Shown here piece by piece: positions 4,657 to 14,412 of a stretch of 45,128 bases of DNA. Below the pieces are notes generated by a model. It did no database searches. It was not told where the DNA came from and worked only from the letters and a program-made list of their open reading frames with translations. The position numbers and the translations under genes were made by a program. Origin of the DNA: a virus; the IMG/VR virus record IMGVR_UViG_3300030329_004565, positions 1-45,128 of that record; one strand, written 5' to 3'. Within the stretch, counting starts at the first letter, position 1, and each line of letters opens with the position of its first letter.

Positions 4657-4793
4657 GGTTGGTCAAAGAGTTCCTGACTGAGGCGGATGCCATGGCGTAT
4701 TGCGATGAGCACCCGAGCAGGAATCTGTTCGTTGAGCCTGCGCTGGGGGGTGTGTTCGAGGTGTGGGACATGGATGCCAAGGGGGATGGATGA
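4653..4793 (+). CDS. Small hypothetical protein, 46 aa
   Basis: The start is in an ATGA overlap. The product reads as one strand-helix-strand unit (VKEFLTEADAMAYCDEH, then NLFVEPALGGVFEVWD) and ends MDAKGDG, the same tail as the 52-aa gene upstream. Its stop overlaps the next ATG. Confidence 0.5.
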   Translation: MRLVKEFLTEADAMAYCDEHPSRNLFVEPALGGVFEVWDMDAKGDG

Positions 4794-4963
4794 GTGAGGA
4801 GCGGGGCCTGATACTGGCGCACTGCATTCCGCATGTGTGCAGGCGGGGGTTTTGCAGCGAGAAGCACGGGCCGGGGATGCTGGAATTCCCATCCATGATT
4901 TTCGTTGAGGCAACCCAAATCACAAAAGAGGCGGACCCGGCAGGGCCGCACTCTCCCGACTGA
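4790..4963 (+). CDS. Small Cys/His-containing protein, 57 aa
   Basis: The start overlaps the previous stop (ATGGATGA context). The product contains HCIPHVCRRGFCSEKH, three Cys and three His in 16 residues, which may coordinate metal. The rest is without recognisable motifs. Confidence rests on coupling and continuity of the operon. Confidence 0.5.
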   Translation: MSEERGLILAHCIPHVCRRGFCSEKHGPGMLEFPSMIFVEATQITKEADPAGPHSPD

Positions 4964-4999
4964 CAATATCACTGGCTCAGTTGGGCCAACAAATGGGGG

Positions 5000-5143
5000 A
5001 TGGGTGAGTATTCATTTGAAGACCTTGCGAGTCGCTCCGCTCAGGACTTCCCCAACCCCGACCACGTCGCAACCGACTGCGCCGAGGACGACGAGGGCTC
5101 GGTCCAGACGACGCTGATACGAAGGCAACAGGAGGGCGAATGA
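5000..5143 (+). CDS. Small acidic protein, 47 aa
   Basis: This short frame follows AAATGGGGG and ends in an ATGA overlap with a well-supported downstream gene. The product is acidic in the middle (CAEDDEGS) and ends IRRQQEGE. The overlap supports translation; no function is evident. Confidence 0.45.
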   Translation: MGEYSFEDLASRSAQDFPNPDHVATDCAEDDEGSVQTTLIRRQQEGE

Positions 5144-10479: not shown

Positions 10480-11466
10480 ATGCCAAAGATGCACGAGTTC
10501 GTCAGGAACATCCTGAAAGACAACGATGTGGATCCACGGGAGGCTTGCTGGGATTGCCATGGTACATGGGTTATCTATCACAAGTATCTCGAACGAATTG
10601 CAGACAAGAACGGGATCACGTTTGATGCACCGCAGATTCTTGCTTGCGATCTGGACAAGAAGGCAGCAGCCATCTGCGTGACGGGGCACCTCGGTGACCG
10701 CAGCGCGTGGAGCTTTGGCGAGGCAACTCGCGACAACAACAAGAACCCGTACCCCCTGGCCATGGCTGAGAAGCGCGCCAAGGACCGGGTCATCTTGAAG
10801 CTGGCTGGCCTGTCAGGACACATCTACTCCGAGGAGGAGGCAGACGTGTTCAAGGAGAACCGACCGCCTGTTCCATCCGCGCCAACTGAGCGCAAGATGG
10901 ACACGCTGAAGCCTGTTGCGCCAGCAGTGCCAGATGCACCGCCCCCTCCGGGACGGTCTCCGGGCAATCTGTCGATGGACGATCGCAAGGAGATGATCCT
11001 TGGGTTCTTCAATGGGCTTGGCCGCAAGGCCGGGGTGAGTGAGATTCGTGAGGCGACGGGGCTCACCAAGTCCCAGTCATCTCATGCGCTCAAGGCGATG
11101 GTGGAAGAGGGGTCTCTCATCATGACCGGCCAGAAGAGTGGCACGCGCTACAACCTGCCGGGAGCCTTGAAGGCAGCGGATGAACCTCCGCAGCCGGTCA
11201 AGCAGGAAGAGCCCGCAAGTCCGCCAGTACCCACTGCGCCGGTACCACAGCCGCCCAGGGTGGAGGCCAAGGGCGATGTGACCGCCGAGGAGTGGGGTGC
11301 TTTCACCCAGCAGATGTTGAGAGAGGGAGCCAACTTCCGTGACCTCCGCAATGCCGTGCTTCAGACCACTGGGTTTGATGATGCACATCAGGCCTTGCAA
11401 GCGGGGGCCATTACGAAGGAGACTCTCCAGAAGATGAGTGACATCTTCAATCTGAGGGTGGCATGA
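10480..11466 (+). CDS. Recombination/annealing-type protein with winged helix
   Basis: Residues 1-125 resemble a phage DNA-annealing or recombination-mediator domain: CWDCHGTWVIYHKYLERIA, GITFDAP and the hallmark YPLAMAEKRAKDRVILKL at 91-108 followed by SEEEAD. Rad52/Erf-type annealing proteins have comparable blocks, but I am not certain of the exact family. A Pro-rich linker leads to a winged-helix domain (about 168-233, with VSEIREATGLTKSQSSHALKA), a second Pro-rich linker and a C-terminal helical domain (about 265-328). It follows the nuclease by 5 bases, the usual exonuclease-annealase pairing. The stop overlaps an ATG that opens into the structured RNA region. Confidence 0.7.
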   Translation: MPKMHEFVRNILKDNDVDPREACWDCHGTWVIYHKYLERIADKNGITFDAPQILACDLDKKAAAICVTGHLGDRSAWSFGEATRDNNKNPYPLAMAEKRAKDRVILKLAGLSGHIYSEEEADVFKENRPPVPSAPTERKMDTLKPVAPAVPDAPPPPGRSPGNLSMDDRKEMILGFFNGLGRKAGVSEIREATGLTKSQSSHALKAMVEEGSLIMTGQKSGTRYNLPGALKAADEPPQPVKQEEPASPPVPTAPVPQPPRVEAKGDVTAEEWGAFTQQMLREGANFRDLRNAVLQTTGFDDAHQALQAGAITKETLQKMSDIFNLRVA

Positions 11467-11483
11467 ACGACAGTCCTATGAAG

Positions 11484-11684
11484 GGCCGTGTTGGTCGCTC
11501 TGGCACGGTTCAGGGGCATCTCTCATGGGACGCCATGAGAGGCCGGGAGCGTAGCGTCAGGCTACGTGGCAGCCTGTGGAAACAGGTCGATGGGGTGAGT
11601 TACCCTGGCTCATCAATCCCATCTCGCCGTCCCCACCCGGTTGGACTGAAGTGGCGCAGGGAGGCATGGCCTTATAGATGCCTC
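11484..11684 (+). ncRNA. Structured non-coding RNA candidate
   Basis: Between two genes lie 243 bases with a chain of strong hairpins on the + strand: 11486-11490/11504-11508; 11520-11528/11533-11541 (nine perfect pairs, GACG loop); 11550-11555/11561-11566; 11573-11577/11582-11586 (GGAA, a GNRA tetraloop); 11593-11596/11602-11605 inside 11589-11592/11111-type outer pairing 11589-11592 with 11611-11614; and 11661-11667/11678-11684 (seven pairs). A 90-codon frame (11463-11735) runs through it but would overlap the next gene and looks unlike protein. It does not match tRNA, tmRNA or any riboswitch I know. It could be a leader regulating the Hc1-like and SSB genes or an independent small RNA. Confidence 0.55.
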
Positions 11685-11709
11685 GTTTCTACAACAACAG
11701 GAGAGAATC

Positions 11710-11883
11710 ATGAATGCCAAGCAACTGGCAGATGAGATTGCTTCGCTTGCGAACGATCTCGTTGGTGATACCGAGAAACAACTGGGCAACGGGAACCAGG
11801 CGGCAGGTCGTCGCGCACGGGTTGCCTCAAGCAAGATCGGCAAACTCTGCAAGGAGTTCCGAAAGGCGTCGCTCGCGGCGTAG
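11710..11883 (+). CDS. Histone H1/Hc1-like nucleoid protein, 57 aa
   Basis: The ATG has GGAGAGAATC before it. The sequence matches the short chlamydial histone-like Hc1 pattern: an N-terminal helix (AKQLADEIASLANDLVGD), then GNQAAGRRARVASSKIGKL and KEFRKASL. Members of this family compact or coat DNA. The product lacks the long lysine-rich tail of full Hc1. It sits between the structured RNA and ssb, so it may act on replicating or packaged phage DNA. Confidence 0.7.
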   Translation: MNAKQLADEIASLANDLVGDTEKQLGNGNQAAGRRARVASSKIGKLCKEFRKASLAA

Positions 11884-11898: not shown

Positions 11899-12468
11899 AT
11901 GGCAGACATGAATCAAGTTCTCCTTCTCGGTCGTCTTGCAAACGATCCAGAAGAGAAGCGCGTCGGACAGAAGGAAACCAAGCTGGTCAACTTCACGGTT
12001 GCCACTAGTGAGAAACTCCCCAATGGGCAGGAAGTCACCGAGTGGAACCGCTGCGTCGCGTGGCAATTCATTGGAGATCAGCTTTCAGGGCTGCGAAAGG
12101 GGGACCTTGTCACTGTCATGGGACGCCTCCAGACCAGATCCTGGGACAACAAAGACGGGGTGAAGCAGTACAAGACAGAGGTCAATGCGTCCTCTGTTGC
12201 ACGGATTCCCCGTTCCAACTCGGCAGGACCGGGCGCACCCGCTGGCCCTGCTGCCCCAACGTGGCCATTCAAGGACACAAAGAACGGCGTGGACTGGCCT
12301 GCTCCAGACAATAGCGGATCCAGCTACGCATCGGACTCAGGAGCGCAGCTTGCTGCCAAGTGGTCCGACCCAGCAAACCCCCGCAAGGGTGGCGTTCTGT
12401 TCCGGCTGATGGACAACGAGTGGGAAACCTTCGGGGAGATCCCCGAGGACGCTGACATCGGATTCTAG
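11899..12468 (+). CDS. ssb: Single-stranded DNA-binding protein
   Basis: The 189-residue product has the SSB OB-fold in residues 1-105: MNQVLLLGRLANDPEEK, VNFTVATSEK, EWNRCVAW, LRKGDLVTVMGRLQTRSW and YKTEVNA. A flexible Gly/Pro/Ser-rich region follows, and the end is acidic, DADIGF, like the DDDIPF tip by which bacterial SSB recruits partners. The ribosome binding site is GGGAAGGGGG. It follows the Hc1-like gene and precedes the initiator and helicase genes. It protects single strands made by the nuclease and helicase. Confidence 0.93.
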   Translation: MADMNQVLLLGRLANDPEEKRVGQKETKLVNFTVATSEKLPNGQEVTEWNRCVAWQFIGDQLSGLRKGDLVTVMGRLQTRSWDNKDGVKQYKTEVNASSVARIPRSNSAGPGAPAGPAAPTWPFKDTKNGVDWPAPDNSGSSYASDSGAQLAAKWSDPANPRKGGVLFRLMDNEWETFGEIPEDADIGF

Positions 12469-12469
12469 G

Positions 12470-13048
12470 ATGGATGTCAACCTGAATGTCATGGCTCTCA
12501 AGGAGCACCCGGCATTCAACAGCCCCATGAGAATCGGGGCCTTTGTGATTCTTGCGTCTCATGCTGGGCCAGGCTCGTTGAAGTTCGATCTGGCCCCTGC
12601 TTCTCTTGCAGAGCGCCTCGATTGTACGAGGGCGCGATTCGAGGATGCAGTGACGGGTCTGGCTCGGCATGGGGCCATTTCCCTCGAGAAGGGTGCAGTC
12701 AAGAGGGGAGTGTGGACCATCGATCTTGCGCCGAGCGCTGCTCTGTTGCAGGGTGATTGGTCCGAGGAGATTTCAGAGGCGGTTCCAGTCCAGGAACTCA
12801 TGAAAGAATGGGATGGCTTGTTTCGTCAGACAACAGGCACCCAGTACATGAGGACTCGCGGAGACTACTGGACCGAGCGACGTGATTGGATCAGCCTCCA
12901 CGATGCTCTCGGAGACCGCCTGTCGAGTTCGATGAGGGCGTTTTTTCAAGACAAGGAGAAGGCTCGCTGGGGCTACAGGTTCTCAGTGTTCTTTCGATGT
13001 GCGGCAATGCTGGTGGAGAAACCAACCAGTGAGTGGAGGTTCAGGTGA
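12470..13048 (+). CDS. Replication initiator or helicase-loader candidate, 192 aa
   Basis: Residues 20-90 look like a winged-helix domain (GAFVILASHAGPG, LAERLDCTRARFEDAVTGL, GAISLEKGAVKRGVWTIDLA). The C-terminal half is helical and aromatic (YWTERRDWISLHDALGDR, RFSVFFRCAAMLVEK). It begins one base after the ssb stop and overlaps the helicase start as GTGA, the usual place for an initiator or loader gene. Function is inferred from fold and position; the family is not recognised. Confidence 0.55.
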   Translation: MDVNLNVMALKEHPAFNSPMRIGAFVILASHAGPGSLKFDLAPASLAERLDCTRARFEDAVTGLARHGAISLEKGAVKRGVWTIDLAPSAALLQGDWSEEISEAVPVQELMKEWDGLFRQTTGTQYMRTRGDYWTERRDWISLHDALGDRLSSSMRAFFQDKEKARWGYRFSVFFRCAAMLVEKPTSEWRFR

Positions 13049-14412
13049 TCGCACGACGCATCAACGGGGAGGCCACATGGAAGGCCGAGCTATACTTCCT
13101 CGCCTCTTTGATTCGCATTCCCAGATACGTCAACAACGTCTCCAAGCCTCATCTTCTTTTTGGTAATCAGGACCTCCTCTCAATGTGGAGGATGTTCGAG
13201 CAGGCAGTGTCCCGCAGGGGTGCGGAAGATCCCCTTCTGGATTCGCTGTCATTTGACGAGATCAGCCTCACAGGTGAGTTCACACGCGCAAACCACGTGG
13301 ATGTACGCACCCTGTGGAAGTCGATGGAAGATCCCGCAATCAAGGGGGCACCGGAGAAACTCCACGGCCTCCTTGAGCACTACGCGATTGCCAGAACGAT
13401 TGATGAAAGAGTTTGCGACAGGCTCAATGCGCTGTCGAGCGGGGACATTACACCCCAGGAGGCAGTGCTCACCCTACAGCAGGACATCGTTGGGTTCAGC
13501 ACGCAGGGCACACATTCCCCGTCAAGCGTTCGCAGCATCGTGAAGGATGTCTGGGAGTCCAGGAGGACCTCGGAGCGCACCAGCATCAAGACAGGCTTCA
13601 AGAAGCTGGATGATGTGATCGGTGCTCTCGTCCCCGGGTGCACCTACCTGTTCTGCGCACGCACGAGCCACGGGAAGTCCTCGTGGGCTGCACAGATAGT
13701 CACGCAGCAGGCACTGGCAGGGCACAGAGTGGGCGTCATCGGACTTGAGGATAGCCGCTCGGTGTGGGCATCCAGATGGATGAGCCGCCTTTCTGGAGTG
13801 ACGCTGAAGAAGATCCGTGACCAGATCTTGAGCCGACCAGTCGTGTCGGATGAGGGGTATGTTCCTCTCACGCCCGACGAAGAGGCAGCGCTTGAGGCAT
13901 CTGCCGAGACGAACTACCTGGACAACATCCAGTTGTCAGATGCCAAAGGGGCTCGGCTCGTGGATGTTCTCAGAATCATGAGCGACATGGTCGTGCGACA
14001 TGGATGTCAGGTCATCTGGGTTGACTACATACAGGCGATCTACGCACGCAGCGGAGACGGGAGAAGCAGACGAGACTTCCTTGAGTACTGCTGGGCCATG
14101 ATGGAGAGAGAGGCAGAGAGACTGGAAGTCCCTCTCATGTTGACCGCACAGTTGAATCGCGAATGGGAACGCGAGCCTCCCGGAGGGATGCCAGGGCTGC
14201 GCCATGTGGAATGGCTTGGCGCTGCTGAACAGAAGGCATTCGTCGGAGCCGTGCTCTACAGGCCATACCGTGATCCCCGCATCACGACAAAGAATCAGGA
14301 CAAGAGGTACAACGAATTGATTTGCAACATCGAGAAGTCAAAGCAGGGGGAGACTGTCGCTCTTGAGTATCACTTTGATCCGGGAGCGTGCGTGATCAAG
14401 GAGATGGGATGA
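13045..14412 (+). CDS. DnaB-like replicative helicase
   Basis: The 455-residue product has a Walker A motif ARTSHGKSS at about 205-213, GLED at 233-236, a Walker B strand VIWVDYIQ at 323-330 and LTAQLNRE shortly after, the order of DnaB/RecA-fold replicative helicases. The N-terminal part (1-150) is a helical domain as in DnaB. I start at the GTG in the GTGA overlap, which has GGAGG five bases upstream; a GTG four codons earlier would lose that site. It would unwind DNA at the phage fork with a host polymerase, since none is encoded here. Confidence 0.88.
   Translation: MIARRINGEATWKAELYFLASLIRIPRYVNNVSKPHLLFGNQDLLSMWRMFEQAVSRRGAEDPLLDSLSFDEISLTGEFTRANHVDVRTLWKSMEDPAIKGAPEKLHGLLEHYAIARTIDERVCDRLNALSSGDITPQEAVLTLQQDIVGFSTQGTHSPSSVRSIVKDVWESRRTSERTSIKTGFKKLDDVIGALVPGCTYLFCARTSHGKSSWAAQIVTQQALAGHRVGVIGLEDSRSVWASRWMSRLSGVTLKKIRDQILSRPVVSDEGYVPLTPDEEAALEASAETNYLDNIQLSDAKGARLVDVLRIMSDMVVRHGCQVIWVDYIQAIYARSGDGRSRRDFLEYCWAMMEREAERLEVPLMLTAQLNREWEREPPGGMPGLRHVEWLGAAEQKAFVGAVLYRPYRDPRITTKNQDKRYNELICNIEKSKQGETVALEYHFDPGACVIKEMG

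Follow-up and report, generated by a model that had tools for sequence, protein, structure and literature searches.

A conserved, apparently undescribed structured RNA ahead of the Hc1-like and SSB genes of uncultivated phages

The locus

The window analysed in this work is the whole of the 45,128-base IMG/VR virus record IMGVR_UViG_3300030329_004565, with its replication arm on the plus strand and its structural arm on the minus strand. It apparently belongs to an uncultivated podovirus-like lineage, and no cultured member of this lineage was found among the phage records searched. None of 50,697 phage records holds a capsid relative above 28% identity, the best reaching 28% over half its length. 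Major capsid proteins about 63-76% identical were also observed across many metagenome contigs (~35 IMG/VR contigs, L060-L104).

A first-pass annotation of this DNA drew attention to a 243-base gap between an annealing-type gene and an Hc1-like gene. The coordinates bear this out, the gap opening at 11467, after the TGA of 10480-11466, and ending at 11709, before the ATG of 11710-11883. The genes and signals around it are:

10480-11466, plus strand: annealing-like recombination gene, upstream of the RNA
11467-11709, plus strand: the gap from the annealing-like to the Hc1-like gene, 243 nt
11700-11706, plus strand: Shine-Dalgarno sequence GGAGAGA of the Hc1-like gene, immediately 3' of the RNA
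11710-11883, plus strand: Hc1-like small basic protein (Pfam PF07432, E = 1.5e-14), the first gene after the RNA in all eight phages
11899-12468, plus strand: single-stranded DNA-binding protein (SSB; PF00436)
13033-14412, plus strand: DnaB-like helicase, the query that found the relatives

A structured RNA of ~205 nt, spanning about 11485-11688 on the plus strand, occupies almost the whole of this gap, which measures 228-264 nt in all eight phages described below. It is fitted exactly between the stop codon upstream and the ribosome-binding site downstream.

The N-terminal domain of the annealing-like protein is 42-51% identical to proteins of isolated phages, which are annotated as hypothetical proteins or 'recombination protein' in phages of Rhizobium, Pseudanabaena, Pelagibacter and Bradyrhizobium. 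In the window the protein is longer at its C-terminal end, and this additional part matches an IclR-type HTH weakly. A further gap of ~480 nt lies between large open frames of the early arm (4657-5139). No second structured RNA is indicated there, because the folding of that stretch is ordinary (z = -0.33).

The fold of the RNA

The folding energy of 11484-11684 stands at z = -3.06 relative to dinucleotide shuffles, with none of 200 shuffles as good. The reverse strand gives z = -2.60, also a fairly good fold, and the folding energy is therefore suggestive while leaving the strand undecided. The strand was decided by covariation and wobble pairs. The elements of the fold in the window are:

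11485-11509, plus strand: P1 hairpin, compensatory changes in 5 of 8 pairs; segment GG-U(U/C)GCUC nearly invariant
11511-11516, plus strand: G-tract CAGGGG, invariant, a candidate pseudoknot strand
11520-11541, plus strand: P2 hairpin, nine perfect pairs and loop GACG, compensatory changes in all 8 pairs counted
11543-11547, plus strand: 5' strand CCGGG of closing helix S2 (CCAAG, CCGAA and CUGGG in relatives)
11549-11567, plus strand: P3 hairpin, 7 pairs, 5 with compensatory changes
11568-11570, plus strand: GGC, pairing with GCC 11626-11628 and closing P4 and P5
11573-11586, plus strand: P4 hairpin, loop GGAA, a GNRA tetraloop
11590-11622, plus strand: P5 hairpin, invariant CCCUG in the loop (11603-11607), stem sequence varying by lineage
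11626-11640, plus strand: GCC-GU-CCCC-A-CCCGG, the 3' strands of the GGC helix, a candidate pseudoknot and S2
11661-11684, plus strand: 3' hairpin P7 (GAGGCAU/AUGCCUC), terminator-like, followed by a U-rich tail, GUUUCU, at 11685-11690

The six hairpins reported earlier are all present, including the nine-pair P2 and the GNRA-loop P4. They do not stand in a plain row, however, as the strongly covarying helix S2 (CCGGG 11543-11547 with CCCGG 11636-11640) encloses P3 to P5. Many unpaired bases of the core are invariant, as is one G-U pair in P1. The P5 stem differs in most lineages around the invariant CCCUG, and in one relative (L010) no P5 stem was assigned.

Two candidate pseudoknots involve the G-tract. 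The partner of CAGGGG can be CCCUG at 11603-11607, in the loop of P5, or CCCC at 11631-11634, a segment that reads CC(C/U)C before S2 across the relatives. Both pair in all eight sequences, perfectly or with one G-U, and the variation consists of one-sided G-U changes only. The two would be mutually exclusive, and neither is proven, because they are conserved in eight of eight without double changes. CAGGGG may pick between them, which would amount to a built-in switch.

Some other pairings were also noted. The P2 5' strand of the window (11519-11527) can pair with the Shine-Dalgarno region of the Hc1-like gene (11698-11706) at 8 of 9 bases, and in the predicted minimum-energy fold GGGGCAUC (11513-11520) can pair with GAUGCCUC (11677-11684) on the 3' side of P7. 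Neither alternative was seen as such in the relatives inspected. Two more candidates were dropped: a kissing contact between the P1 loop and GAGC, which on inspection of the alignment is lost in G028 and confounded with P3, and a pairing of the P1 3' strand with the GGAGAG loop of the 3' hairpin, which fails in L002 and G023.

Relatives, covariation and novelty

A search with the DnaB-like helicase returned three IMG/VR relatives at 57-58% identity, and a helicase alignment added a fourth at 55%. All four have the same gap, and each gap holds a recognisable version of the RNA. The first-pass annotation had proposed a covariance-model search. Such a model, covering a 146-nt core and built from five sequences, was run over 37 records, most of which were chosen solely for a related major capsid or terminase gene. 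Three more members came out blind (E = 8.2e-22, 5.2e-20 and 1.5e-18), each of them sitting between annealing-like and Hc1-like genes.

The window and seven diverged IMG/VR relatives thus carry the RNA in the same place, with identical gene order around it in all eight. When 25 of these records were searched for the helicase, the RNA was found in every record that covers the region upstream of the helicase (8/8); the sole other helicase-bearing record ends inside that gene. Helicase identity among the eight phages is 53-69%, apart from one pair at 94%, and identity of the RNA core is 53-72%, apart from the same pair at 90%. From these identities we estimate that the eight represent about seven well separated lineages. 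The RNA of L010 has 54% G+C, and its flanks 41%.

Pairing was assessed in the alignment of the eight sequences over 40 named pairs, drawn from P1, P2, S2, P3, the GGC helix, P4 and one candidate pseudoknot. Standard pairing occurs in 95.6% of cells, whereas a slid control, with partners moved by 1-3 columns, gives 42-57%. Both sides have changed in 26 of the 40 pairs (12.5 expected in shuffles), and compensatory cells number 57 (17.3 in shuffles). Compensatory changes therefore go well beyond the controls, and the stems are kept across the seven relatives. The clearest covariation is that of S2, which reads CCGGG/CCCGG, CCAAG/CUUGG, CCGAA/UUCGG and CUGGG/CCCAG in different phages. Fitting the alignment to a covariance model leans it towards structure, which is a minor concern in view of the slid control and of the three members found blind. 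Among the paired cells there are 42 G-U and 2 A-C on the plus strand. Wobbles are mismatches on the opposite strand or in DNA, so this asymmetry points to selection on the plus-strand RNA.

At the level of sequence comparison, these results establish an RNA that is encoded by the gap's plus strand and maintained in its shape by natural selection. The architecture that the alignment demonstrates comprises P1, P2 and S2 around a multibranch of P3, P4 (with its GNRA loop) and P5, and then the 3' hairpin. The earlier proposal of an undescribed structured RNA is thereby supported. Of the two outcomes named beforehand as refuting it, a loss of the stems in relatives is countered by the compensatory changes, and synonymous-biased variation in the 11463-11735 frame by the stops that interrupt that frame in several relatives.

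The view that the sequence belongs to no known tRNA, tmRNA or riboswitch also holds. ARAGORN reported no tRNA or tmRNA in the window, and none of the Rfam 15 covariance models matched it at the gathering threshold. A relaxed Rfam search of the gap gave a single match, to mir-1204 (E = 4), which is irrelevant and lies outside the element, and at E <= 1 no family matched the seven homologous loci. Direct DNA similarity to annotated phages, a scan of IMG/VR with the annealing-like protein and a scan for the exact P2 pattern returned no matches. A motif scan for AGGGGCA-GGACGC-CCGGGAGC picked out L006 and L008, which are chance hits in the wrong context with no covariance-model match. Across 84,980 bacterial and archaeal genomes a motif scan returned 42 stretches, none of which was confirmed by the covariance model. 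Model R2 found no member in ~400 whole genomes of two phyla and five single genomes, a search run with stricter filters and no known positive included. No RNA of this kind was found in isolated phages whose annealing domain is related (RHph_Y1_10, Pam5, Hodr and BDU-MI-1) or whose TerL or MCP is distantly so, and the covariance model found no member in seven specific phage records. The best match among isolated phages, in Pam5 at 13.9 bits, is antisense inside a coding gene. The part of the literature that was covered held no report of the RNA. As far as these Rfam, phage, bacterial-genome and literature searches reach, the RNA family is undescribed.

Possible roles and known systems

What might such an RNA do? 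Its surroundings and its 3' end give some indications. There is no promoter room between the RNA and either neighbouring gene, and we therefore infer that it is transcribed with the recombination/replication operon, unless a promoter lies inside the upstream gene. Scanning in and before the RNA with the E. coli-type consensus revealed no promoter-like site. The 3' hairpin P7 pairs in all eight phages while its stem sequence varies, and its GGAGAG loop is invariant in six, the window and G017 having another 3' form. An intrinsic terminator combines a G+C-rich hairpin with a U-run; here the hairpin is present in all eight phages, and the U-run is strong in four phages (at least 6 U in 8 nt) and weak in the other four, the window included (4-5 U). 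No homologous alternative helix for the 5' strand of P7, that is, no conserved antiterminator, was found in the eight sequences. The distance from the 3' hairpin to the ATG is 22-26 nt in six phages and 50 nt in two. L002 (4565-4588) and L003 (2372-2390), which form a close pair, are alone in having a further hairpin, located after the 3' hairpin and before the Hc1-like Shine-Dalgarno sequence; it lengthens the spacer from 22-26 to 50 nt.

The reading that we favour, with a probability of roughly one half, is that of a cis-acting leader that tunes the Hc1-like, SSB and helicase genes, possibly through binding to a protein encoded by one of them. The RNA would be transcribed within the operon and act in cis on the genes that follow. 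A phage protein, most plausibly a nucleic-acid-binding product encoded just downstream, would bind the folded core and the invariant loops, and this binding would alter how often transcription passes the 3' hairpin, how accessible the ribosome-binding site behind the RNA is, or both. The supply of DNA-coating protein would then match the quantity of replicating phage DNA. The identity of the effector and the sign of its effect are guesses. A precedent is T4 gp32, which represses its own mRNA (PMC535899). The leader reading draws on the compensatory structure, the blind members, the presence of the RNA in 8/8 and the plus-strand wobbles; on a place that is invariably just ahead of the Hc1-like gene, whose Shine-Dalgarno sequence immediately follows the RNA; on a 3' hairpin that pairs in every phage and keeps its loop in six despite changes in the stem; and on the G+C contrast in L010. 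However, no antiterminator helix is shared across the eight, the U-tail is weak in half of them, and the constant position before the Hc1-like gene may reflect shared ancestry, the gene order being the same throughout, rather than function in cis.

A stand-alone noncoding RNA is nearly as likely as the leader. It would be cut or terminated from the operon transcript with its 3' end at P7 and fold into a compact domain, to be bound by a protein of the phage or its host or to base-pair with other RNAs in trans. Large structured phage noncoding RNAs exist, and the complex core with its many invariant unpaired bases, the invariant-loop 3' hairpin with a strong U-tail in four phages and the lack of a conserved switch partner are all consistent with one. 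The missing promoter-like site, the terminator that is weak in half of the members and the tight spacing of the next gene argue the other way. A more specific and tentative version is a new class of phage noncoding RNA that would act in trans as a ribonucleoprotein component, e.g. with the Hc1-like protein or a host factor, either during the replication or recombination of phage DNA or to counter host defence.

The remaining explanations fare less well. The size, the multibranch, the possible pseudoknot and the terminator-like hairpin right before the ribosome-binding site recall a metabolite riboswitch using the terminator as its expression platform. Yet a two-state switch of this kind is not supported, because no conserved antiterminator was found; moreover, the downstream genes handle DNA rather than metabolites, and the searches made found the RNA in one phage lineage only, so that we regard a riboswitch as improbable. 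More doubtful still is a nut/put-like antitermination site loading host factors onto RNA polymerase. It would suit an element just before a terminator-like hairpin, and the UGCUC(U) within the invariant UUGCUC of P1 presumably resembles the start of boxA; but the match spans few bases, the remainder of boxA is not preserved (its bases pair in P1) and no N-like gene was identified. A structure of single-stranded DNA (origin, primosome or packaging hairpins) would fit a location among SSB, helicase and annealing genes and a reverse strand that also folds. It is contradicted by the excess of G-U over A-C cells on the plus strand, and the invariant G-U pair in P1 and the GNRA loop also count against it, making DNA hairpins very unlikely. 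Finally, the 90-codon frame at 11463-11735 could be a gene with incidental folding; it is open in the window and shares an ATGA start/stop overlap with the upstream gene. We reject this reading, as the matching frame carries stops in at least four of the seven relatives (L004, L002, G028/L110 and G017/L112). The frame also overlaps the Hc1 start and has no family match, and the variation in the stems is compensatory.

This work provides a well-supported covarying fold that neither Rfam nor the annotated phages tried contain, together with a ready-made covariance model, a set of invariant loops and a clear operon place upstream of the Hc1-like, SSB and helicase genes. Whether a large structured RNA tunes phage DNA-coating proteins, or a stand-alone RNA takes part in recombination, is now directly testable.

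Precedents exist for structured phage leaders and noncoding RNAs as a kind. Type III toxin-antitoxin systems (ToxI-like) combine a pseudoknotted RNA of tandem repeats, a terminator-like hairpin and a small gene for a ToxN-type nuclease. The order of RNA, terminator-like hairpin and small gene is alike here, but the downstream gene is Hc1-like (PF07432), with neither tandem repeats in 11400-11760 nor a ToxN-like nuclease. The manA and wcaG RNAs are structured RNAs of phage genomes and potential 5' UTRs (PMC2864571); they precede metabolic or light-response genes in cyanophages, whereas the RNA described here precedes DNA-binding genes and matches neither model. The STAXI motif is a small pseudoknot in two to three copies, often near SSB or other DNA-handling genes, and it has been suggested that it may function as single-stranded DNA (Weinberg et al. 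2010, PMC2864571). The SSB neighbourhood is common to both, but ours is one non-repeated 205-nt fold with RNA-specific wobbles and no Rfam match, and 11400-11760 holds no tandem repeats.

In T4, an RNA pseudoknot ahead of the start codon allows the SSB (gp32) to repress the mRNA that encodes it (PMC535899). That operator and the present RNA are both structured phage RNAs in the leader of an SSB gene within a replication/recombination region, although the pseudoknot here is only a candidate. The T4 operator consists of ~28 nt plus UUAAA repeats over the ribosome-binding site, whereas ours is a multibranch of ~205 nt, and the window has no UUAAA repeats between P7 and the ribosome-binding site. 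The first gene here is Hc1-like with SSB second. With these differences, T4 gene 32 is probably the best-known functional analogue of the proposed protein-bound leader.
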